From assembly GCA_003600225.1 (NCBI GenBank), contig QZFT01000056.1, positions 62,001-126,000 on the forward strand: a stretch of 64,000 bases of DNA. Direction: 5' to 3'. Positions 22,927 through 54,438 of this stretch are shown here, in pieces. The translations under genes were made by a program, and so were the position numbers. The notes beneath the pieces were generated by a model. That model ran no database searches, was not told the DNA's origin, and worked only from the letters and a program-made list of their open reading frames with translations. Position 1 is the stretch's first letter, and every line of letters starts with the position of its first letter. Source of the stretch: Pseudonocardiaceae bacterium YIM PH 21723 (GTDB lineage: Bacteria > Actinomycetota > Actinomycetes > Mycobacteriales > Pseudonocardiaceae).

Positions 22927-23023
22927 CAAGAGGTGAAACTCGTCCTTTACTGGCCAGTAGTTACCAGCCTATGGTGTGCCTTGCGTAACAGGCCGGTTTC
23001 GCCAACTGTGGGACGAGTCCTGA

Positions 23024-23908
23024 ATGACCTCAGCACGACCAGCACGCCCCGCCTCCCTCCGATCCCGAATTGCCAGATCGGAGCTGGTCAGGCGTGTTCT
23101 CACCCCCCAAGTCAGCATCACCGACGACGCCTTGCGGCAGGCAGTATCCGGCACAGTGGTCTTGATCACCGGGGCCTCCTTCGGCATCGGTGAGTCCACC
23201 GCGCGCCGGGTCGCCGCAGCGGGCGCCACCACCCTCCTGGTGGCCCGGACCGCCGAGGTCCTGGAAGAGGTCGCCGAGAAGATCACCGCCGACGGCGGCA
23301 TCGCCCACGCCTACCCTGCCGACCTCACCGACGCCGACCAGGTGGACGACCTGGTCCAGCGGGTGCTGGCCGAGCACGGTCACGTGGACTTCCTGGTGAG
23401 CAACGCGGGCCGGTCCATTCGCCGGCTGCTGTCGAAGTCCTACGACCGGTTCCACGACTTCCAGCGCACCATCGACATCAACTACCTGGGCCCGGTGCGC
23501 CTGGTGCTCGGCCTGTTGCCGAGCATGCGGGAACGCAAATCCGGCCATCTGGTGAACATCTCCACCTGGGCCGCGCTACTGCCGCCCAGCGCGGGCTGGT
23601 CCGCCTACGTTGCCTCGAAGTCGGCGTTCGACGTCTTCTTCCGGACCGTAGGCGTGGAGAGCAGCCAGGACAACGTCACCACGTCCACGATCTACATGAC
23701 ACTGGTACACACCCGGATGAGCGCGCCGACCGAGGCACTGCGGCACGCGCCAGGCCTGACGCCCGACGAGGCGGCGGAACTGGTGATCAAGGCAATCGTT
23801 GAGCGTTCACAGAGCATCACCTCCTGGTACACGTGGGCCGGCAACGTCGGGTTCACCGCGGTACGTGCACCGTTGGAAAAGTTCCTGAGCTGGCGAAGGG
23901 GTCGTTGA
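23024..23908 (+). CDS. Short-chain dehydrogenase/reductase
   Basis: A 294-residue SDR with the cofactor loop TGASFGIG near residues 48-55, DLTD, the NAG motif (VSNAGRS) and the active site YVASK near 190. An N-terminal extension of about 40 residues precedes the Rossmann fold, and the C terminus ends in a basic helix, as in membrane-associated lipid-type SDRs. Its TGA overlaps the ATG of the acyl-CoA ligase gene by one base, so the two are coupled. Together they may reduce or modify an acyl chain. The substrate is unknown. Confidence 0.85.
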   Translation: MTSARPARPASLRSRIARSELVRRVLTPQVSITDDALRQAVSGTVVLITGASFGIGESTARRVAAAGATTLLVARTAEVLEEVAEKITADGGIAHAYPADLTDADQVDDLVQRVLAEHGHVDFLVSNAGRSIRRLLSKSYDRFHDFQRTIDINYLGPVRLVLGLLPSMRERKSGHLVNISTWAALLPPSAGWSAYVASKSAFDVFFRTVGVESSQDNVTTSTIYMTLVHTRMSAPTEALRHAPGLTPDEAAELVIKAIVERSQSITSWYTWAGNVGFTAVRAPLEKFLSWRRGR

Positions 23909-25500
23909 TGAGCATTGCGATGTTGGCGTCGGCTGCACGTGCTTTCTGGGGAAGCGGCATGATCACCCAGACCCGCCCGTGGCATCTGCCCGGCATGGCC
24001 AAGGCTCGGTGGAGCACCGGCAGCTCCGCCGCTCTGCCACTGGCCCTCGCCGCGAGCAGGCAGGGTGACAAGGTCGGCCTGGTCGACGACCGGGGCGAGA
24101 TCAGCTACCGGCAGCTGGACGATGCGGCGTCCCGGCTGGCCGCCGGCATCTCCGCCGCCACCGAACTGGGTACCGAGCCGAAGATCGCGGTGATGTGCCG
24201 CAACCACCGCTACTTCCTGATCGCGATGGGCGCCGCCGGGCGGCTCGGCGCGAACCTGATCTTCCTAAACACCGAGTTCTCCGGTCCGCAGCTGACCAAC
24301 ATGTTCAAGAACATCACGCCGGACTACATCATCGCCGACGAGGAGTTCCTGCCCCGCCTCGGCGACGCCCCCTGCCCGGTGGTCGCGGCGTGGACCGACT
24401 CGGCACTGCCCGGGCAGACCACGGTCGACCAGGTCGTGGCCCGGAACAAGCCGACCAGTGTGCTGAAGCCGGCCAGCACCGGCAAGGTCACCATCCTGAC
24501 CTCGGGCACCACCGGCACCCCCAAGGGCGCGTCCCGGTCCACCGGACCCAAGGCCGTGCTGGCGATCTTCTCCACGCTGATGATCCGCTGCGGCGTGAAG
24601 GCGGGCGACACCACGCTCATCGCCCCGCCGGCCTTCCACGGTGTCGGCCTGATGGGCCTGCACCTGTCGCTGGTGCTCGGCAACCCGATCATCATGCGTC
24701 GCAAGTTCAAGCCGGAGCAGGTGCTCAAGGACATCGACCAGTACAAGGTCCGATGTATCGTCGGCGTCCCGGTGATGTACCAGCGGATGGTCGAGCTGCC
24801 CGCCGAGACGCGGGACAGGTACGACCACTCCACCCTGGAAATGGTGCTGTCCAGCGGTTCCGCGCTGCGGCCCGAGCTGTTCCGCCGGTTCACCGAGGCC
24901 TTCGGCCCGGTGCTCTACAACGCCTACGGCTCCAGCGAGTGTGGTTTCGCCGCGATCGCCACGCCCACCGACATGCTGGAGGCTCCCGGCACCGTCGGCC
25001 AGCCGAGCATCGGCATCCCGGTGCAGGTGCTGCGGGACGGCGCGCCGGTCTCCGCTGAGGAGTCCGGCACCATCTACGTCGGCGGTCCGCAGGTGATCAG
25101 CCAGTACATGGGCGGCGGCGCCAAGCAGGTGATCAACGGCCTGGTGAACACCGGCGACGTCGGCCACTTCGACACCAGCGGCCGGCTGTACGTCGACGGC
25201 CGCGAGGACGACATGATCGTCTCCGGCGGGGAGAACGTGTACCCGCAGGAGGTCGAGGACCTGCTGTCCAAGCACCCGAGCATCACCGAGGCGGCCGTGG
25301 TCGGCGTCGAGGACGAGCAGTACGGGCAGCGGCTGGTCGCCTACGTGGTTCCGCGCGGGTCGCAGCCGGACACCGATGAGCTGCTGGCGTACGTGAAGGA
25401 CAACCTGGCCCGGTACAAGGTGCCTCGGCAGGTCGTTTACCTGGAGGAGCTGCCGCGGAACGCCACTGGGAAGGTTCTGCGGCGGGTTCTGGGTAAGTAG
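23908..25500 (+). CDS. Acyl-CoA ligase (AMP-binding, FadD-like)
   Basis: A 530-residue ANL-superfamily enzyme. The P-loop-like motif TSGTTGTPKG is near residues 194-203, the A5 region YGSSECG near 340, the hinge motif with DGREDDMIVSGGENVYP near 430, and the catalytic Lys in RNATGKVLRR near the C terminus. It activates a carboxylic acid as acyl-AMP and transfers it to CoA. The start ATG overlaps the stop of the SDR gene (TGATG), showing translational coupling. DUF222-HNH element A begins seven bases after its stop codon. Confidence 0.92.
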   Translation: MSIAMLASAARAFWGSGMITQTRPWHLPGMAKARWSTGSSAALPLALAASRQGDKVGLVDDRGEISYRQLDDAASRLAAGISAATELGTEPKIAVMCRNHRYFLIAMGAAGRLGANLIFLNTEFSGPQLTNMFKNITPDYIIADEEFLPRLGDAPCPVVAAWTDSALPGQTTVDQVVARNKPTSVLKPASTGKVTILTSGTTGTPKGASRSTGPKAVLAIFSTLMIRCGVKAGDTTLIAPPAFHGVGLMGLHLSLVLGNPIIMRRKFKPEQVLKDIDQYKVRCIVGVPVMYQRMVELPAETRDRYDHSTLEMVLSSGSALRPELFRRFTEAFGPVLYNAYGSSECGFAAIATPTDMLEAPGTVGQPSIGIPVQVLRDGAPVSAEESGTIYVGGPQVISQYMGGGAKQVINGLVNTGDVGHFDTSGRLYVDGREDDMIVSGGENVYPQEVEDLLSKHPSITEAAVVGVEDEQYGQRLVAYVVPRGSQPDTDELLAYVKDNLARYKVPRQVVYLEELPRNATGKVLRRVLGK

Positions 25501-25523
25501 GTTTTGGGGCGGCTTTTGAGGGT

Positions 25524-25598
25524 GAGGCGCTGGTCTGCGGCTGTCAAAACCCAGCTGTGGGCTTCTGGCTGTGGTTGACAGCCGCAGCCCAGCACCTC
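25524..25598 (-). other. Conserved 3' hairpin of DUF222-HNH element A
   Basis: Arms 25524-25547 and 25575-25598 pair at 22 of 24 positions around a 27-base loop; the core is CTGCGGCTGTCAA. The same stem occurs after the HNH gene of element B, with loop sequence changed. It may be a terminator, an RNA element or a recognition site. Confidence 0.7.
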
Positions 25599-25725
25599 CT
25601 TGGAGCCTTGCGCCCCATCTCCGCTGTTGGCCCCCGGAACAGGGGGAAGATCCATGAGTGCTCCTTGTTTCGGGTGGGGACACACCGGGGTTGGGTGCGG
25701 CCCCACTTCGGCTTGGGATCGGGGT

Positions 25726-26850
25726 TCAATTGCGTTTGTGGGGCCTCAGCGGTTTCGTCAAAACCCGGCCCTCATCGGTTGTCCACCGCACGGAACCATC
25801 CGGATTCTTGATGTAGCTCCAGTTGCCCTCATCCTTGAGTCGATGGTGGTGTCGGCACAGCGGCAAGAGGTTGCAGATGCAGGTTCTGCCGCCATCCTCA
25901 TGGCGCCGGCAATGGTCGATGTCGCAGGTCACCGCTGCCGCCATGCAGAACGGTGCCGAACACGTTCTGTGCGTCGAAGTCAGCAATCTGCGCATCCCCG
26001 GGGTCGGGAACCGTGACTTGGTCTCGGCTTTGATCCCGACACCGGTGACCGGGTCTTCGACCAGCCGATACCAATCACCCTTCGCCGCGTAATCGCGCGG
26101 GACCTGGGCTGGGATCGGTCCCATTCCCGCGACCTGCGCCGGAGCATCCGAGAACCCAGCCACAACATCAGGCGTGAGATGGATGATGATCTCCGCCTTC
26201 ACCTCCCTGGCACCCTCGAACGTCCCCAACAACAGCTGCTGGGAGATGTCGCAGCGCAGCTGATCCATCTCCCGCTCATCACCCTCACGCCGCAACTTCT
26301 TCGCCAGCGCTCCGACATGCTGGGGGATCGCGTGATTGGTCGCTTCATCCCCGGTGATCGCCAACGTCGACACACCATCAGAACCTGTGCGGTGCTTCAA
26401 CTTTCGTTGATGCATCCGCCGCGACTTCCGATCCGCGTACCCATCCGGATCAACCCGCAGGATCTCCTCGTCCATGATCCCGGCGAGTTCCCGCGGTGAG
26501 GACCACAAGGCGTTGTCCAACGCGACCTGCTCCACCGCCGCAACCTTGTCCGCCGACAACCACTGAGTCTTCGAATAGATCGCCTGCATCCGCTCCTCGC
26601 AGATCTCCCCAGCCAGCAAAGCCTCGAACGTGGACCGCAACGGACCATCCAACGCCTGAGCGACCTCCAACCAGTTGGACGCACGAGGAGACATCCCCAT
26701 CACCTCACCGACCACATCCGCGACGAACTCATAATCACCCCGCTCCTCGGCCATCCGAGCCGCATACGAGCGCATCACAGCGGCGTCCTTGCGGTGCCGT
26801 TTGACCAGCACCTCAAACCCGTCCGCCGTGTACTCGTAGCTCTCGCTCAT
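25726..26850 (-). CDS. DUF222 plus HNH endonuclease-domain protein (13E12-like), copy A
   Basis: A 374-residue protein beginning MSESYEYTADGFEVL at the ATG at 26848-26850. The N-terminal two thirds are the helical DUF222 domain. The C-terminal HNH domain has the metal-binding pattern CDIDHCRRH, then CNLLPLCRHHHRLKDEG near residues 320-350. Family members are abundant and often multicopy in actinobacteria. A TAATAT box lies directly before the start, and the transcript may be leaderless. It differs from copy B at scattered residues, including RASN in place of RRAAN. Nuclease activity is predicted; biological role unknown. Confidence 0.88.
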   Translation of the reverse strand: MSESYEYTADGFEVLVKRHRKDAAVMRSYAARMAEERGDYEFVADVVGEVMGMSPRASNWLEVAQALDGPLRSTFEALLAGEICEERMQAIYSKTQWLSADKVAAVEQVALDNALWSSPRELAGIMDEEILRVDPDGYADRKSRRMHQRKLKHRTGSDGVSTLAITGDEATNHAIPQHVGALAKKLRREGDEREMDQLRCDISQQLLLGTFEGAREVKAEIIIHLTPDVVAGFSDAPAQVAGMGPIPAQVPRDYAAKGDWYRLVEDPVTGVGIKAETKSRFPTPGMRRLLTSTHRTCSAPFCMAAAVTCDIDHCRRHEDGGRTCICNLLPLCRHHHRLKDEGNWSYIKNPDGSVRWTTDEGRVLTKPLRPHKRN

Positions 26851-26961
26851 GTCTTCGATATTACTCGCACACAATGCTGATATCGAATCCACACAATAAC
26901 CCACATGGGTGTAAAACTGGGGCTCCACAGTCACCTAAAACCCCGAAAAAGACCGTTCAAG

Positions 26962-27327
26962 CTAAGGCCGGGTAAGCACCTCCAGCCAATGCCCGCTCGG
27001 GTCCTGGAAGTAGAACCCCCGGCCGCCGTTCATGTCGTTGACCTCGTTCTCCCGCGTCGCGTACGGATCCGCCCAATACGACTGCTTCGCGCTCACCCGC
27101 TCCAGGATCCCCTCGAAGTCCTCATCGTCGATCTGGAACGCGAGGTGCTGCTGCGTGATCTTCTCGTCGTCCACGGTCAGGTAGTCGAGTTGCAGGTTGT
27201 TCGCCAGCGGGATCGCCTGAAACGGGCCGACTGCAACGGGTTCCGGCAAACCGAGAACCGCGGCCAGATACCGCGACGCCTCAAGAGCGTCCTTGGACCG
27301 GACAATGGTGTGATTGAGTTGAATCAT
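26962..27327 (-). CDS. VOC (glyoxalase/bleomycin-resistance fold) protein
   Basis: A 121-residue protein of the vicinal-oxygen-chelate fold, starting MIQLNHTIVRSKD and ending GRGFYFQDPSGHWLEVLTRP. His at position 5, the central QQHLAFQID strand and Glu in the C-terminal HWLEV are placed like the metal ligands of the family. No ribosome site is present: a -10 TAGCCT ends six bases before the ATG, so the mRNA is probably leaderless. The promoter is of MerR type (separate entry), suggesting induction by redox stress, a metal or a drug. Confidence 0.85.
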   Translation of the reverse strand: MIQLNHTIVRSKDALEASRYLAAVLGLPEPVAVGPFQAIPLANNLQLDYLTVDDEKITQQHLAFQIDDEDFEGILERVSAKQSYWADPYATRENEVNDMNGGRGFYFQDPSGHWLEVLTRP

Positions 27328-27333
27328 GAATTC

Positions 27334-27364
27334 AGGCTAGGACCTCTACTTAACTAGAGGTCAA
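27334..27364 (-). promoter_or_regulatory. MerR/SoxR-type promoter of the VOC gene
   Basis: On the minus strand, -35 TTGACC (27359-27364) and -10 TAGCCT (27334-27339) are 19 bases apart, the long spacer typical of MerR-family activation. A 22-bp palindrome (27341-27362, arms GACCTCTA and TAGAGGTC around a TTAA centre) lies across the spacer and -35. It resembles the SoxR box, CCTCAAG-TTAA-CTTGAGG in form. No MerR gene is in the window. Confidence 0.75.
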
Positions 27365-27398
27365 TAAACCAATTGCCCGGTAGCCTAACCTCGTATTC

Positions 27399-27923
27399 GT
27401 GATCCACTTTGTCACCACCGAGGACGGGCAACGGCTGAAGGAACTCCGGCTCGAGGCCCTCAAAGACACGCCGCTGGCCTTCGCCGAGCACTACGCCGAG
27501 GCCGCCCAGCTACCCGACGACCACTGGGACCAGCGGGTGGTCCGCTTCTGTCAGCCGGACCGGGTTCTCCTGGTCTCGGACGACGAGGACGGCCGCTGGA
27601 CAGGGATGATCGGCGCCTTCACCGAGGCCGTCTGGCAGACCAAACCGGACGAACTTCACCCACCAGTGGAAGCCCCCTGGACGATGCTCTACAGCGTCTA
27701 CGTGCGCCCGGAACACCGCGCATCAGGGGTTGCCGACGAGCTCATGGCGGCCGCCCTGGACTGGAGCAAAGATCACGGTGGGCACGTGATTCTGCAGGTC
27801 CTGGAGGACAATCAGCGGGCGATCCGGTTCTATCAACGGCACGGTTTCCAGCTCACCGACGCGCGTAGCCCTTACCCGCTAGACCCGGATTACTCCGAGG
27901 TCTACATGATTCGTCCCACCTGA
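27399..27923 (+). CDS. GNAT-family N-acetyltransferase
   Basis: A 174-residue GNAT starting at a GTG. The core has MLYSVYVRPEHRASGVADELMAAA (acetyl-CoA pyrophosphate loop R-A-S-G-V-A) and the C-terminal NQRAIRFYQRHGFQLTD. It diverges from the VOC gene, and the palindrome at 27341-27362 lies in the shared gap, about 37 bases from its start, so a MerR-type regulator might affect both. No clear ribosome site. Substrate unknown. Confidence 0.85.
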   Translation: MIHFVTTEDGQRLKELRLEALKDTPLAFAEHYAEAAQLPDDHWDQRVVRFCQPDRVLLVSDDEDGRWTGMIGAFTEAVWQTKPDELHPPVEAPWTMLYSVYVRPEHRASGVADELMAAALDWSKDHGGHVILQVLEDNQRAIRFYQRHGFQLTDARSPYPLDPDYSEVYMIRPT

Positions 27924-27932
27924 ATTCAGGGA

Positions 27933-28574
27933 ATGAACTGGGCATACCGGCGGTTTGCTACGTACATGTATGGCGAGGAGACCGTCCCCAGCGAGCGGAC
28001 CCGAGTGAAGATCAAATTCGCTCGGGAAGCCGCCGGCGAGGCCGAGCTGGTGACCTTCAATGGTCTGGCCGACAGTGCCGAGCACGTTGCCATCGTGTTC
28101 GAGCCGGTCGGCGTCGTGCCCCAGGTACGGGTGCACTCCGAGTGTTTCACCGGGGACATCTTCGGCTCCATGCGCTGCGACTGCGGTCCGCAACTGGACG
28201 AGGCGATCCGCGAGTTCGGCGAGTCCGGCGGCATCCTGCTGTACCTGCGCCAGGAAGGCCGGGGCATCGGGCTGTACAACAAGATCGACGCGTACGCCCT
28301 GCAGGACCAGAACCTGGACACGTACGAGGCGAACCTGAAGCTGGGTCGCGGCGCCGACGAGCGTGATTACCTGGTTGCCGCCCAGATGCTGCGGGCGCTG
28401 GGACACGAGACCATCCGGCTGACCACCAACAATCCGGACAAGGTGAGCCAGCTGCGGACCCACGGGATCGACGTGACCGAGGTGCGGCCCACCGGCGTTT
28501 ACGTCAACCCCAGTAACCGTGCGTATCTGGAAGCGAAGGTGCGCACCACCGGGCACACCCTGCACGTCGCCTGA
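27933..28574 (+). CDS. GTP cyclohydrolase II (stand-alone RibA-type)
   Basis: A 213-residue single-domain GTP cyclohydrolase II. Visible are the zinc site HSECFTGDIFGSMRCDC (Cys about residues 70, 81 and 83), the catalytic YLRQEGRGIGLYNKI segment and TNNPDKV. It opens GTP to the diaminopyrimidine used for riboflavin. In many actinobacteria this domain is fused to RibB; a stand-alone copy outside a rib operon often belongs to secondary metabolism or is a spare. The start at 27933 has AGGGA too close; an ATG at 27966 is an alternative. It follows the GNAT gene by 9 bases and is probably co-transcribed. Confidence 0.88.
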   Translation: MNWAYRRFATYMYGEETVPSERTRVKIKFAREAAGEAELVTFNGLADSAEHVAIVFEPVGVVPQVRVHSECFTGDIFGSMRCDCGPQLDEAIREFGESGGILLYLRQEGRGIGLYNKIDAYALQDQNLDTYEANLKLGRGADERDYLVAAQMLRALGHETIRLTTNNPDKVSQLRTHGIDVTEVRPTGVYVNPSNRAYLEAKVRTTGHTLHVA

Positions 28575-28575
28575 C

Positions 28576-28619
28576 CTGAAAGACTCTTTCAGTACCACTG
28601 GGGACTGAAAGAGTCTTTC
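28576..28619. repeat. Two nested palindromes between the RibA-type and XRE genes
   Basis: CTGAAAGACTCTTTCAG (28576-28592) is itself a perfect odd palindrome. A second copy of its core, GAAAGAGTCTTTC, lies at 28607-28619. Together they also form one hairpin with 16-bp arms (28578-28593 and 28604-28619). This can be a terminator for the RibA-type gene or a double operator for the XRE regulator that follows. Confidence 0.7.
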
Positions 28620-28688
28620 CACGTAACAATATCCGTCTCCGCATATGCTCCAATGTGGTCGTTCGCCTGAGGAACAAGAACGGTCACT

Positions 28689-29519
28689 GTGAGTAATACA
28701 CCCAATCCGCGGCAGCGCCGGCTCGGGACCGAGCTGCGCGTGCTCCGGGAATCCGCCGGACTCAGCCAGGCAGACGCGGCAGGACGCCTGGGCTTCGAGC
28801 GGCGAAAGATCGCCCGGATGGAGAGCGGCGCCTCTCCCCCGCGTAAGCCGGAGCTCTCCTTTCTGCTGGACCTCTACGGTGTCCGGCCGGACACCCCCAC
28901 CAGACGGGCACTGGAGAACCTGGCCGACCGGATGCACGACGCCGGCTGGTGGGAGGAGTTCGGCGACGTCGTCGACGACGAGTTCCCCACCCACATGGAC
29001 TGGGAGTCCGATGCCACGGCGATCCGCGAGTGGGCGCCGACCCTCATTCCCGGCCTGCTGCAGACCCCGGACTACGCCCGGGCGATCATCGGCGGGGCGC
29101 TGACCGAGGAGCAGACGGCCGTCGGTACTGCCCTGCGACTGCGCAGGCAACGGCGGCTGACGGAGCTGGACTACACGGCGATCATCTGGGAACCGGCGCT
29201 GCGCGCTCCGGCGGGTGGGCCTGCCGTGATGCGTGAACAGCTCAACGCGTTGCTGCGAATGGCGGCCCGGAGGAACATCGGGGTCCACGTACTACCAACG
29301 GGCACTTCTGCCCATTTCGCCATGGTCGGGCCGTTCACCGTGTTCGAATTCCCCTATGGCGGCAAGGCCGCACTGGAGACGTTGGTCGGTTCTCGCTACG
29401 CCGATGGGGGCGAAGGCGTTCAGTGGTGCAACGAGGGCTTTGCCGCCATCCATGATCTTGCGCTGGACCAGGAGCGGTCCGCGCACCTGATCACGTCGAT
29501 CGCGGAGGAGTTCGGATGA
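28689..29519 (+). CDS. XRE-family regulator with DUF5753 domain
   Basis: A 276-residue regulator starting at GTG. Residues 10-70 are a Cro/CI-type helix-turn-helix (LGTELRVLRESAGLSQADAAGRLGFERRKIARMESG, key positions seen), and the remainder is the DUF5753 domain with IPGLLQTPDYARAI near 120 and a C-terminal region ending in SIAEEFG. This is the WhiJ-like class of actinomycete regulators, which nearly always pairs with a DUF397 protein, as here: its TGA overlaps the ATG of that gene. Likely controls development or secondary metabolism; targets unknown. Confidence 0.92.
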   Translation: MSNTPNPRQRRLGTELRVLRESAGLSQADAAGRLGFERRKIARMESGASPPRKPELSFLLDLYGVRPDTPTRRALENLADRMHDAGWWEEFGDVVDDEFPTHMDWESDATAIREWAPTLIPGLLQTPDYARAIIGGALTEEQTAVGTALRLRRQRRLTELDYTAIIWEPALRAPAGGPAVMREQLNALLRMAARRNIGVHVLPTGTSAHFAMVGPFTVFEFPYGGKAALETLVGSRYADGGEGVQWCNEGFAAIHDLALDQERSAHLITSIAEEFG

Positions 29520-29692
29520 ACACCCGATGGTTCAAATCCAGCCACAGCGGCGCGAAGAACAACTGCGTCGAGTGCTGTCACTTATCCGGGGGAATCGCCG
29601 TGCGTGATTCCAAGGCACCACAGCTGGTCCTCAGCTTCGCCGACCACGCCTGGACCGTGTTCCTCGGCGCCCTGCAGCGCCGCTTCAGATAG
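29516..29692 (+). CDS. DUF397 small partner protein
   Basis: A 58-residue protein ([19 protein letters not shown] at the start). The WFKSSHSG and NNCVEC motifs, then VAVRDSK-like (IAVRDSKAP) and a C-terminal [13 protein letters not shown], are the complete DUF397 signature. Its ATG overlaps the stop of the XRE gene (ATGA), so it is translationally coupled. In Streptomyces such pairs behave as regulator plus small modulator, with a toxin-antitoxin-like relation proposed for some. The gene is well formed despite its size. Confidence 0.93.
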
Positions 29693-29705
29693 TCGCGATC
29701 CGGCC

Positions 29706-29736
29706 TTGCCTGGAGCGCGCTCCAGGTCGTTAGCGT
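29706..29736 (+). promoter_or_regulatory. MerR-type promoter of the aldo/keto reductase gene
   Basis: -35 TTGCCT (29706-29711) and -10 TAGCGT (29731-29736) are 19 bases apart. The 18-bp palindrome CCTGGAGCGCGCTCCAGG (29709-29726) overlaps the -35 and fills the spacer, exactly the geometry of MerR-family activated promoters. The cognate MerR protein is not encoded in the window. Confidence 0.78.
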
Positions 29737-29765
29737 GGCTGACGAACACAGGAGAGGTGGAACGA

Positions 29766-30755
29766 ATGCGAAGCGTGCTGCTTGGCGACAAGCTGGAGGT
29801 ATCCGCACAGGGACTGGGCTGTATGGGCATGTCGGCCTTCTACGGTCCGGGCAACGACGAGGAGTCGGTGGCCACGCTGAACCGGGCCCTCGAACTCGGT
29901 GTCACCTTCTGGGACACCTCCGACATGTACGGCCCGCACACCAATGAGCGGCTGCTGTCCCGGGTCCTCCAGGACCGGCGGGACGAGGTCCAGCTGGCGA
30001 CCAAGTTCGGCTTCCTGACCAACCCGGACGGCACCCACGGCATTCGGGGCGACGCGGCTTACGTGCGTGCGGCGGTGGACGGCAGCCTGCAGCGGCTGGG
30101 CACCGACCGGATCGACCTGTACTACCAGCACCGGCAGGACCCGAACACGCCGATCGAGGAGTCGGTCGGCGCGATGGCCGAACTGGTCAAGGCGGGAAAG
30201 GTGCTGCACCTGGGCCTGTCCGAGGTGACCGGCGACGAGCTGCGCCGGGCGCGCGCCGTGCACCCGATCGCGGCGATCCAGCCGGAGTGGTCGCTGTGGA
30301 CCAGGGACATCGAGGCGGAGGTCGTGCCGGTGGCCCGGGAACTGGGCGTGGGCATCGTGCCCTACTCCCCGCTGGGCCGTGGTTTCCTCACCGGACAGCT
30401 GTCCGATGTGGACGATCTGGCCCCGGATGACTTCCGGCGCGCCGCCCCGCGGTTCGCCGAGGAGAACCGGCAGGCGAACGTGGCGCTCATCCAGACCATC
30501 GAAGAGATCGCGAGCGCGCACGGTGCCGCCAAGGCACAGGTGGCCCTGGCGTGGGTGCACCAGCGGTCCGAGGTACACGGCCTGCCGGTCGTACCGATCC
30601 CCGGTACCCGCCGGATCAAGTGGCTGGAGCAGAACGTCGGCGGGCTGGACGTGGCGCTGTCCGCCGAGGAACTGTCCACTCTGGACACCATCGCGGACCG
30701 GGTGGCGGGCGCGCGCTACCCGAGCATGGCGAGCACCTTCAACTCCCGCGCCTAG
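29766..30755 (+). CDS. Aldo/keto reductase
   Basis: A 329-residue TIM-barrel reductase with the AKR signatures: FWDTSDMYG (catalytic Asp and Tyr), LATKFG (catalytic Lys), [14 protein letters not shown] (His position) and the C-terminal NADPH-binding [14 protein letters not shown]. The ATG has GGAGAGG upstream. It reduces aldehydes or ketones with NADPH. The gene stands alone, controlled from a MerR-type promoter, which suggests induction by electrophiles or drugs. A hairpin with a UUCG loop begins four bases after the stop. Confidence 0.92.
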
Positions 30756-30758
30756 GGA

Positions 30759-30798
30759 TCAGGCCCTGAAGGGCACTTCGGTGTCCTTCAGGGCCTGA
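30759..30798. terminator. UUCG-loop hairpin between convergent genes
   Basis: Arms 30759-30776 and 30781-30798 pair over 18 positions with one G-T. The loop is TTCG closed by C-G, the very stable cUUCGg tetraloop in the plus transcript. The second arm includes the stop codon of the minus-strand gene (30788-30790), so the terminator is shared with coding sequence. Confidence 0.85.
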
Positions 30799-31669
30799 AC
30801 TTCTTCTCCATGTCGTCCATGGCGCGGCTGAAGTCCTCGCTGTCGGCGTTGCGGAACTTGAGGAAGAAGATGTCCGGCACCCGGGCCACCTTGAGCCGGG
30901 AGAGGAACAACGCGTCCTCCACCTCGCCGGCGAAGCGCAGCAGTTCCTGTTCGTCGGTCTGCCCCGCGACCCGGTTACGCAGCAGCGCGAGGACCCGCAT
31001 GCGCTCGCCCGCCACGTCCCGGTGATTGCGGTAGGCGTCCAGGCCGAACAGCAGCGCGCCCAGTGAGGGCACGTACCAGCGCATCAGCAGCTGGACGACG
31101 GTGAGGTTCGCCAGACCGCCGATCAGCAGGCCCAGCAGTGCCCAGGCCAGCACCACGACCAGCAGCAGGTTCGCGTACCGCAGCCGGATCCTTGCGCCCC
31201 AGCCCAGGCTCTGCATCTGGCAGGCCAGCACGTCGTACGGACGGGGAAAGTCGCGGACCTCGAAGTAGCCGAAGACCATCTCGTCCGGCGCGGTGGACTG
31301 CTTGGCCAGCCGGTTGATCTCCTCCTGGCCGATCGGATCACCGAACAGCACCGGGTTCCACGGCAGGTCGAACAGCTTGGCGCACAGCATCTGCTGGATG
31401 ACCGCCGCCCGGCGCAGTTCCCGGCCGAGCACGGCGGCGAAACCCGCCGAGTACAGGAATCCCCAGATCACACCGAGGACCGCCACCGGAATGGCGATGC
31501 TGCTGACGAACGCGGCCACCAGACCGGCGACGGCGGTGGCCACGGAGATCCCGGTGCGCAACCCTTCCCACCGCTGGGCCCGCGCGTTCGAGGTGAACAT
31601 CGCCCGGATCAGCATGATCATCTCGGGTTGGTCCTGCCGCTCCCGAATAGGCGACTGCGCCACTGCCAT
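30788..31669 (-). CDS. S-4TM-type putative pore-forming membrane protein
   Basis: A 293-residue protein starting MAVAQSPIRERQDQPEM. Four hydrophobic segments are seen in two pairs (about residues 42-62 and 63-80; 166-187 and 190-206), with LFDLPWNPVLFG between them and a charged cytoplasmic C terminus. The RQ-x-x-P N-terminal motif, the LPWN motif and the 2+2 helix layout fit the S-4TM family, predicted pore-forming effectors found with nucleotide-signalling and STAND conflict systems. It is divergent from a kinase-fold gene, fitting a defence context. No nucleotidyltransferase is present. Assignment is by pattern memory, so moderately sure. Confidence 0.6.
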   Translation of the reverse strand: MAVAQSPIRERQDQPEMIMLIRAMFTSNARAQRWEGLRTGISVATAVAGLVAAFVSSIAIPVAVLGVIWGFLYSAGFAAVLGRELRRAAVIQQMLCAKLFDLPWNPVLFGDPIGQEEINRLAKQSTAPDEMVFGYFEVRDFPRPYDVLACQMQSLGWGARIRLRYANLLLVVVLAWALLGLLIGGLANLTVVQLLMRWYVPSLGALLFGLDAYRNHRDVAGERMRVLALLRNRVAGQTDEQELLRFAGEVEDALFLSRLKVARVPDIFFLKFRNADSEDFSRAMDDMEKKFRP

Positions 31670-52851: not shown

Positions 52852-53033
52852 GGGCTTCTGGCTTTTATTCGAAGGATGGCTTTGGAGGAGAGAGGGGATG
52901 GGTCTTTCCTTGTGGGTTGTCCCGTTGTGGGCGTTTTCGGGGTCTTAGGCGACTGTGGGGCCCCATTTGTTTCACCCATGTGGGTTATTGTGTGGATTCG
53001 ATATTAGCATTGTGTGCGAGTAATATCGAAGGC

Positions 53034-54161
53034 ATGAGCGAGAGCTACGAGTACACAGCGGACGGGTTTGAGGTGCTGGTCAAACGGCATCGCAAAGACG
53101 CCGCTGTGATGCGCTCGTACGCCGCCCGCATGGCCGAGGAACGCGGTGATTACGAGTTCGTCGCTGATGTGATCGGTGAGGTGATGGGGATGTCTCCTCG
53201 TCGTGCGGCGAACTGGTTGGAAGTCGCTCAGGCGTTGGATGGTCCGTTGCGGTCCACGTTCGAGGCCTTGCTGGCTGGGGAGATCTGCGAGGAGCGGATG
53301 CAGGCCATCTATTCGAAAACCCAGTGGCTGGCGGCGGACAAGGTTGCGGCGGTGGAGCAGGTCGCGTTGGACAACGCCTTGTGGTCCTCACCGAGGGAAC
53401 TCGCCGGGATCATGGATGAGGAGATCCTGCGCGTCGATCCCGATGGGTACGCGGACCGGAAGTCGCGGCGGATGCATCAACGAAAATTGGAGCACCGCAC
53501 AGGATCCGACGGCGTCTCCACGTTGGCGATCACTGGTGATGAAGCGACCAATCACGCGATCACCCAGCACGTGGGCGCACTCGCGAAGAAGTTGCGGCGC
53601 GACGGCGATGAGCGCGAGATGGATCAGCTGCGCTGCGACATCTCCCAACAGTTGCTGCTGGGGACGTTCGAGGGTGCCGGTGAGGTGAAGGCGGAGATCA
53701 TCATCCACCTCACACCCGACATCCTCGCCGGATTCTCCGACGCACCCGCGCAAGTGGCGGGAATGGGTCCGATCGCAGCTGAGGTCGCGAGGGATTATGC
53801 GGCGAAGGGTGATTGGTACCGGCTGGTCGAGGATCCGGTGACCGGAGTCGGGATCAAAGCCGAGACCAAGTCACGGTTCCCCACACCGGGAATGCGAAGA
53901 CTGCTGTTCTCCACTCACAAGACCTGCTCCGCACCGTTCTGCATGGCGGCCGCGGTGACCTGCGACATCGACCATTGCCGACGCCACGACGACGGCGGCA
54001 AAACCTGCATCTGCAACCTGCTACCCCTGTGCCGACACCACCACCGACTCAAAGACGAAGGCAACTGGAACTACACCAAAAACCCGGATGGTTCGGTCAA
54101 GTGGACAACCGACGAAGGCCGCGTGATCACCAAACCGCTCAGGCCCCACAAACGCAACTGA
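53034..54161 (+). CDS. DUF222 plus HNH endonuclease-domain protein (13E12-like), copy B
   Basis: A 375-residue near copy of the protein at 25726-26850, starting MSESYEYTADGFEVL, with the DUF222 helical region and an HNH site (CDIDHCRRHDDGGKTC, then CNLLPLCRHHHRLKDEG). The longer open frame back to 52836 is not conserved in copy A, so the ATG at 53034 is the start. The TAATAT of the 5' dyad ends seven bases before it, fitting a leaderless message whose promoter is inside an inverted repeat, perhaps for autoregulation. Confidence 0.88.
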   Translation: MSESYEYTADGFEVLVKRHRKDAAVMRSYAARMAEERGDYEFVADVIGEVMGMSPRRAANWLEVAQALDGPLRSTFEALLAGEICEERMQAIYSKTQWLAADKVAAVEQVALDNALWSSPRELAGIMDEEILRVDPDGYADRKSRRMHQRKLEHRTGSDGVSTLAITGDEATNHAITQHVGALAKKLRRDGDEREMDQLRCDISQQLLLGTFEGAGEVKAEIIIHLTPDILAGFSDAPAQVAGMGPIAAEVARDYAAKGDWYRLVEDPVTGVGIKAETKSRFPTPGMRRLLFSTHKTCSAPFCMAAAVTCDIDHCRRHDDGGKTCICNLLPLCRHHHRLKDEGNWNYTKNPDGSVKWTTDEGRVITKPLRPHKRN

Positions 54162-54313
54162 ACCCCGACCAGAGCCGGAGTGGGGCCGGACCCAACCCCG
54201 GTGTGCCCCCACCCAAAACAAGGAGACCTGATGTCCTCTCCCCATCAATCCGGGGACAACAGGGAAAGAAGGGGCACCGCGAAGCCAAAGCGGATGGGGC
54301 GCGCGGCCCCCAG

Positions 54314-54388
54314 GAGGTGCTGGGCTGCGGCTGTCAACCACCACCCAAAGCACCCCGCCCAGTTTTGACAGCCGCAGCCCAGCGCCTC
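54314..54388 (+). other. Conserved 3' hairpin of DUF222-HNH element B
   Basis: Arms 54314-54337 and 54365-54388 pair at 23 of 24 positions around a 27-base loop; the loop differs from element A while the stem is kept. It lies 150 bases after the HNH stop codon. Confidence 0.72.
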
Positions 54389-54438
54389 ACCCTCAAAAGC
54401 CGCCCTACCCGCCCCAATCCCCCATATCCTCTAAACCG

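Follow-up and report, generated by a model that had tools for sequence, protein, structure and literature searches.

Sharply bordered DUF222-HNH units dispersed in a Pseudonocardiaceae genome: a possible homing-like mobile element with palindromic DNA ends

Two near-identical genes for DUF222-HNH proteins in a 64,000-nucleotide stretch of the genome of Pseudonocardiaceae bacterium YIM PH 21723 (hereafter, the window) were found to belong to a sharply bordered repeated unit, termed A-type, which is dispersed between genes in unrelated contexts. Dispersal as bounded units and purifying selection on the protein were observed directly; gain or loss at orthologous sites and homogenisation of copies were observed in related units of genus g11, not in A. 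Because borders are sharp, unit ends palindromic, sites gained or lost, copies constantly rewritten and the nuclease under selection, we consider there to be an even chance that these units are a homing-like mobile element consisting of a single gene for a DNA-binding HNH nuclease with palindromic DNA ends.

The earlier note on this DNA had described two near-identical genes on opposite strands, and this was confirmed. The gene of copy 1 lies on the minus strand (25726..26850; 374 aa from a conserved ATG at 26850, stop at 25726-25728, frame open up to a GTG at 26934), that of copy 2 on the plus strand (53034..54161; ATG at 53034, stop at 54159-54161, 375 aa), and the proteins are 95% identical. 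Similarity beyond the reading frame, likewise claimed in the note, was evident from BLAST of window positions 23000-31000 against the whole genome, by which the borders were defined: the unit extends ~99 bp 5' of the ATG and 221 bp 3' of the stop. Copy 1 occupies 25505..26949 (minus strand), with borders matching within 3 bases in 5 other intact copies including copy 2 (25505, in one case 25507, to 26948-26950); copy 2 spans 52934..54405 by its BLAST-match borders (plus strand; C46:114934-116405). One further, diverged copy (75%) matched over a shorter stretch, and another copy is probably split in two, which would account for a pair of partial matches at contig ends. The unit is thus more than the mere pair that the note had seen, there being 8 A-type copies in the genome (7.6 Mb) and 45 DUF222 matches at 44 places.

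Localisation of the gene neighbours agreed with the view that the units fill spaces between genes and break none. Copy 1 starts 4 bp beyond the stop codon of a gene for an AMP-binding enzyme and at its far end stops 12 bp before the stop of a convergent 121-aa ORF, for which no Pfam match was obtained at 1e-5, and copy 2 is flanked by an adenosine deaminase gene and a HrpB-like helicase gene. Immediately left of copy 2 lies a partial “head” of an abundant inverted-repeat element (52857..52910, plus strand; C46:114857-114910, E 5e-7), which is discussed below. Searches of the family with A-unit DNA and protein found no A unit in other genomes (with five candidates scored in each, 1 of 386 genomes passed E<=1e-60), one of these searches matching mainly the neighbouring genes; no relatives appeared in a scan of genome contigs, from which near records may be missing, and none in plasmids. 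Since no relative was found outside, the mobility of A rests on dispersal inside one genome.

A 5' dyad, TTCGATAT-N18-ATATCGAA, is matched exactly at 26854..26887 in copy 1 and at 52997..53030 in copy 2 (no strand assigned), and none of 100 shuffles contained it. The 3' stem-loop is located at 25524..25598 in copy 1 (minus strand; arms 25575-25598 and 25524-25547), its outer edge ~20 bp inward of the unit border, and at 54314..54388 in copy 2 (plus strand; arms 54314-54337 and 54365-54388). The stem comprises 24 pairs including one G-T wobble; copy 2 forms every pair, and copy 1 has one G.A mismatch. Folding z-scores were -7.1 and -9.0 for the window copies and ranged from -7.1 to -9.0 over the 4 copies tested. 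That the stem is kept while the loop drifts, as had been noted, was supported by a gap-free alignment of 7 A copies (85 columns), in which the 24-pair stem is 97.6% paired, a figure that falls to 36-47% if the pairing partner is shifted by 1-3 columns. Two pairs changed on both sides, pair 18-68 (TA in 4 copies, CG in 2, TG in 1) and pair 20-66 (CG in 4, GC in 3). The covariation score was equalled in 0 of 500 shuffles, and the number of doubly changed pairs in 318 of 500, with 7 sequences only. Two covarying pairs in seven related sequences are modest evidence that does not separate RNA from DNA, and arm-to-arm exchange within the palindrome could mimic selection on the stem. The alignment of A copies contains single-base and other indels, in keeping with the lack of a conserved reading frame across the 3' part.

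The stem might simply be an ordinary, possibly bidirectional terminator that travels with the gene and forms no special end structure, and we regard this as rather unlikely. It is indeed very stable and shortly past the gene, copy 1 is situated between convergent gene ends, and several unit-free sites in sister genomes of g11 (site L102, below) show other long palindromes by eye. However, in 7 copies no T-run adjoins the stem at either end, on either strand. The earlier note had named occurrence behind unrelated genes as a sign of a terminator; the genome search with the stem arm pattern gave 7 matches (14 on both strands together; reversed-pattern control 0), all located at A-type units (in one case at a contig end) and 0 of 7 behind an unrelated gene. 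The diverged A copy L039 is without the stem pattern. Moreover, two of the other subfamilies speak against a terminator, B being devoid of conserved 3' structure and C bearing its module before the gene too. Most likely, the 3' hairpin is one folded DNA end of a mobile unit and not a guide-like RNA.

By flank and protein we grouped 41 of the DUF222 matches into subfamilies of our own definition, A (8), B (11), C (14 plus the diverged L027) and D (7); L012, L043 and L044 are fragments. Subfamily representatives share 24-33% identity, and copies are 87-97% identical to one member of their own subfamily, with the exceptions of L039 (73%) and L027 (49%). Each of the four has its own repeated flanks, which move together with the gene. 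The expectation that a 3' stem is general to DUF222-HNH units was not upheld: B units end at the stop codon, the units read in two other genera, g9 and g22, end at or near it, and C and D carry palindromes of other kinds. A 5' hairpin is common to the B units, which show no conserved 3' structure in 9 aligned copies, L003 and L004 with altered C-termini being left out. D units have a 5' flank in common; by eye, TGTCCG-N7-CGGACA hairpins were seen 3' of D genes (L028, L029, L036), repeated in some copies, and in L030, L033 and L036 the 3' palindromic region contains, at one shared position, identical foreign sequence that is probably an IS.

In C units, a 170-bp module of nested stems stands before the gene (plus) and inverted after it (minus), similarly to terminal inverted repeats. 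Both modules are present in 11 of the 12 C copies with both sides on the contig, one left module being in two pieces; on the left side of the remaining copy 55 positions of the module are found, and the C-like L027 is without it. In G212, from another genus, a homologous module precedes DUF222 genes. Over the two genera, 10 of 44 predicted pairs were kept through both-side changes, and several predicted pairs are broken in two G212 rows. No clear target-site duplication was found in C flanks or at the empty sites described below.

The head core has 289 matches in the genome (reversed control 1). A head was found at the start of 9 of the 10 B units with enough upstream sequence (nhmmer E<=1e-17; weak in L003), of 6 of 7 D units (nhmmer E<=0.002) and of 4 of 8 A units. 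Elsewhere the head occurs in inverted pairs that form elements of 346-505 bp; 21 distinct pairs, two cut at the locus end, were counted in the loci read. These abundant elements consist of two inverted ~110-bp heads with variable inner palindromes (e.g. L119-L138; C1:12268-12651, C46:176002-176506), gave no Rfam match in the 2 loci scanned (L121, L133) and resemble miniature inverted-repeat elements. On the right side of B and D units, the search for an inverted head found none. At the right end of A, two patches collinear with the inverted head gave marginal scores, reached by 5 to 422 of 500 shuffles in 6 copies; this sequence similarity is a hint that the A right end may be an inverted head, and no terminal inverted repeat was established for A by that comparison.

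A related structured, branched palindromic module with a conserved GTGAGCCTC-like strand, R1 (e.g. L207-L235), matched in 140 of 390 family genomes at E<=1e-6 in a survey that scored at most 10 matches per genome and was not an unbiased sample. R1-type modules gave no Rfam match at L014 or L019. A DUF222 gene adjoins R1 at 9 of 10 loci in G212 (5 by tblastn of loci, 4 by comparing coordinates; at the tenth there is a DUF222 fragment only, 78 bp, >1 kb away), at all 8 examined of 10 matches in G228, and at 2 of 9 examined in G379, one ~840 bp off, the other 7 being 10-330 bp from a contig end and uninformative. R1 is often without a DUF222 match within about 1.5-2 kb: none of 20 loci in G277, G308, G282, G169 and G017 has one beside it, and 27 of 30 one-per-genome loci lack it, the three with a match being those of the own genome, G212 and G228. 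In G176, R1 matched at least 10 times, and DUF222 gave nothing at E<=1e-10. Because of such R1 loci and of G176, R1 as a strict partner of DUF222 was dropped.

Some weight, at a similarly low level as for the terminator, is due to the explanation that another enzyme moves palindromic inverted-repeat elements and the units travel as their passengers. The head core far outnumbers DUF222 genes (289 against 45), R1 occurs in G176 without a DUF222 match, and B and D have the head at one end only. On the other hand, the DUF222 ORF takes up ~1.14 kb of a C unit of 1.6 kb, at least 21 of the 24 genome matches to the C module pattern are in C-unit loci, and purifying selection on the protein is strong in each of the four subfamilies. 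The median dN/dS there is 0.06-0.09 and the median dS 0.53-0.64 (sets of 7, 9, 12 and 6 copies); given this dS, the copies are old, with no recent burst.

The DUF222 domain (PF02720) of the copy 1 protein was detected with E 9.4e-14 and 51.9 bits against a cut-off of 24.4. Pfam names DUF222 alone in 5 of 5 proteins at E<=0.01, with no HNH family and no RuvC. Residues C297, C302, H313, C332, H335 and H336 are at least 90% conserved in 31 proteins. An AlphaFold2 model built on the 31-sequence alignment (pLDDT 76.9, pTM 0.43) was compared with known structures. Foldseek on its own yielded no match at E<=0.001, and the domains are read from VIA-align, where a Z below 8 (below ~13 in the case of helical bundles) can reflect no more than a frequent arrangement of elements. 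Of the eight best rows, seven were ParB/Noc proteins (Z 7.3-8.9, over about residues 18-135) and one was a designed protein, and HNH nucleases (TagI, IscB, EcoKMcrA) aligned to about residues 275-371 with Z about 7. Among solved sequences, IscB was nearest to the HNH part (E 0.0024; structure Z 7.1). The modelled N-terminal part thus resembles a ParB/Noc-type DNA-binding domain and the C-terminus an HNH nuclease. ParB and Noc bind palindromic sites, and by analogy this would fit the palindromic unit ends, which is no proof. As to a transposase, Pfam names only DUF222 in the gene product; DUF222-HNH may be an undescribed kind of transposase. A broader idea, to which we give little credence, is that DUF222-HNH is the enzyme of a separate mobile-element class, in which a ParB-like palindrome-binding domain and an HNH nuclease copy palindromic intergenic DNA with the gene inside or not, head and module repeats being non-autonomous partners.

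DUF222 units of ~1.3 kb with similar borders (query about 1204-2502) were found in many g11 genomes, three candidates being scored per genome. The units are gained or lost at the orthologous sites L100, L102, L166 and L168. At L102 the unit is present in G134 and in 0 of 10 other genomes in which both flanks were found; the insert in G134 also contains a 1,083-bp element repeated elsewhere in that genome, plus further sequence. This element (99.6-100% identical), apparently an IS, adjoins three different DUF222 units of G134 (L099, L102, L103). The unit-free L102 sites of sisters (L179-L188) hold sequence that varies by species and is often palindromic by eye, hence this intergenic spot changes quickly. 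L100 carries a unit in G134 and G097 and is empty in G161 and G086; L166 carries one in G161, G134, G145 and G110 and is empty in G091 and G122, G129 (no unit, other sequence between the flanks) being left out of the count. At L168, G161, the one genome with both flanks, is without the unit, 5 further genomes being left out of account. L169 has a unit match in 5 of 5 genomes, the ORF of G134 being shortened, and L101, filled in 11 of 11, is uninformative on gain. Shortly 5' of the assumed start, 23 of 24 g11 rows (e.g. L100, L169) show GTTCGA, with the consensus CACAGGTGTTCGA, which resembles one half of the SOS-box consensus; the dyad of A units differs from this motif.

Strong concerted evolution was observed in g11. 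Among 28 units, which were best matches to a query and not a random draw, paralogues within a genome are 90.9% identical (28 pairs), same-site orthologues 81.6% in the median (69 pairs), and units from different sites and different genomes 81.3% (281 pairs). The set is without L194 and L201 (short frames) and without the diverged group L099 and L102-L105, whose members are 87-92% alike within G134 and 73-75% to L104 of G110. The mean within-genome identity of 90.1 was reached in 0 of 2000 shuffles of genome labels (maximum 84.0). For 22 of 28 units the nearest neighbour comes from the own genome (22 of 26 when genomes with a single unit are set aside). At L101, flanking pieces are mostly 85-97% identical and the unit 75-83%. 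Since paralogues exceed same-site orthologues in identity, units are rewritten from other copies of their own genome. Ordinary recombination between repeats can also give concerted evolution. Frequent gene conversion, with hotspots, is described for the REP13E12 loci of M. tuberculosis in PMC13061034.

Another proposal, less probable than those above, is that DUF222-HNH is a multicopy host repair or defence family homogenised by ordinary repeat recombination. It would accord with the low dN/dS and with the mismatch-repair role that PMC4181829 proposes for LexA-controlled 13E12 HNH genes. Gain or loss at orthologous sites argues against it, as do flanks that move together with the gene, four subfamilies with at least 7 copies each in one genome, and PADLOC, which returned no match for 4 of 5 proteins and weak matches to the HNH region only for the fifth. 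Of the role that the earlier note had suggested for the hairpin, a structured RNA or a recognition site serving the nuclease, the DNA half (recognition or end structure) is plausible and the RNA half unsupported because structures differ by subfamily, C modules are inverted on the two sides and related modules occur without a nearby DUF222 match. Conserved structures working as RNAs with the nuclease, as in IscB, are hence highly improbable, since, in spite of the closeness of the HNH part to IscB and of the C-module pairs kept through double changes in two genera, no structure common to the subfamilies was seen, C modules are inverted on both sides, the five proteins show no RuvC in Pfam, the window and 7 loci gave no Rfam match at gathering scores, modules occur with no DUF222 match nearby, and several pairs break in two G212 rows.

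In the homing-like reading that we prefer, the protein would recognise palindromic DNA at intergenic sites, its HNH nuclease would cut the recognised site, and host repair of the break would copy the unit in. Such copying would seed new sites and also overwrite older copies, as homing endonucleases do, with many dispersed target sites rather than one cognate site. In subfamily A, the 3' stem would be the right end, ~20 bp inside the border.

Within this bacterial family DUF222/13E12 genes are widespread, 129 of 200 genomes giving a DUF222 match at E<=1e-10. If the nuclease drives copying and conversion, a cause would be found for the REP13E12 conversion hotspot of M. tuberculosis; furthermore, with multicopy palindrome-ended units and with empty sites already located, the idea is open to direct tests in non-pathogenic relatives. 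The mobile look of 13E12 repeats is already in print: PMC5005354, citing earlier work, ascribes mobile-element characteristics and LexA regulation to the 13E12 genes of the LexA regulon. New are the palindromic ends, the repeats sharing those ends and the strong concerted evolution. The portions of the DUF222/13E12 literature that we consulted describe neither palindromic ends nor partner repeats nor a ParB-like domain, which agrees with the earlier note in that a role of the 3' hairpin is undescribed for these repeats.

Several known systems share features with the units. The mycobacterial 13E12 repeats (REP13E12), as far as the sources seen in part describe them, are likewise multicopy, of the DUF222 family, subject to gene conversion between copies and mobile-like; they are set apart by description, these same sources mentioning no palindromic end modules or partner repeats. 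IscB/OMEGA systems (HEARO) have an HNH domain of similar fold and structured elements beside the gene, whereas here no RuvC, no Rfam match and no structure shared by subfamilies was found. Set beside a classical insertion sequence, the units give a mixed picture: inverted repeats stand at the two ends of C, none was established for A, and no inverted head was found right of B. REP/RAYT systems also comprise genome-wide palindromic repeats sharing an end with a nuclease-gene element; there the enzyme is a Y1 transposase, here DUF222-HNH, and G176 is against a simple version of this parallel. Free-standing homing endonuclease genes, too, are gained or lost between genes and have sequence overwritten between copies, while the units described here differ from them by many dispersed sites per genome and by palindromic ends.
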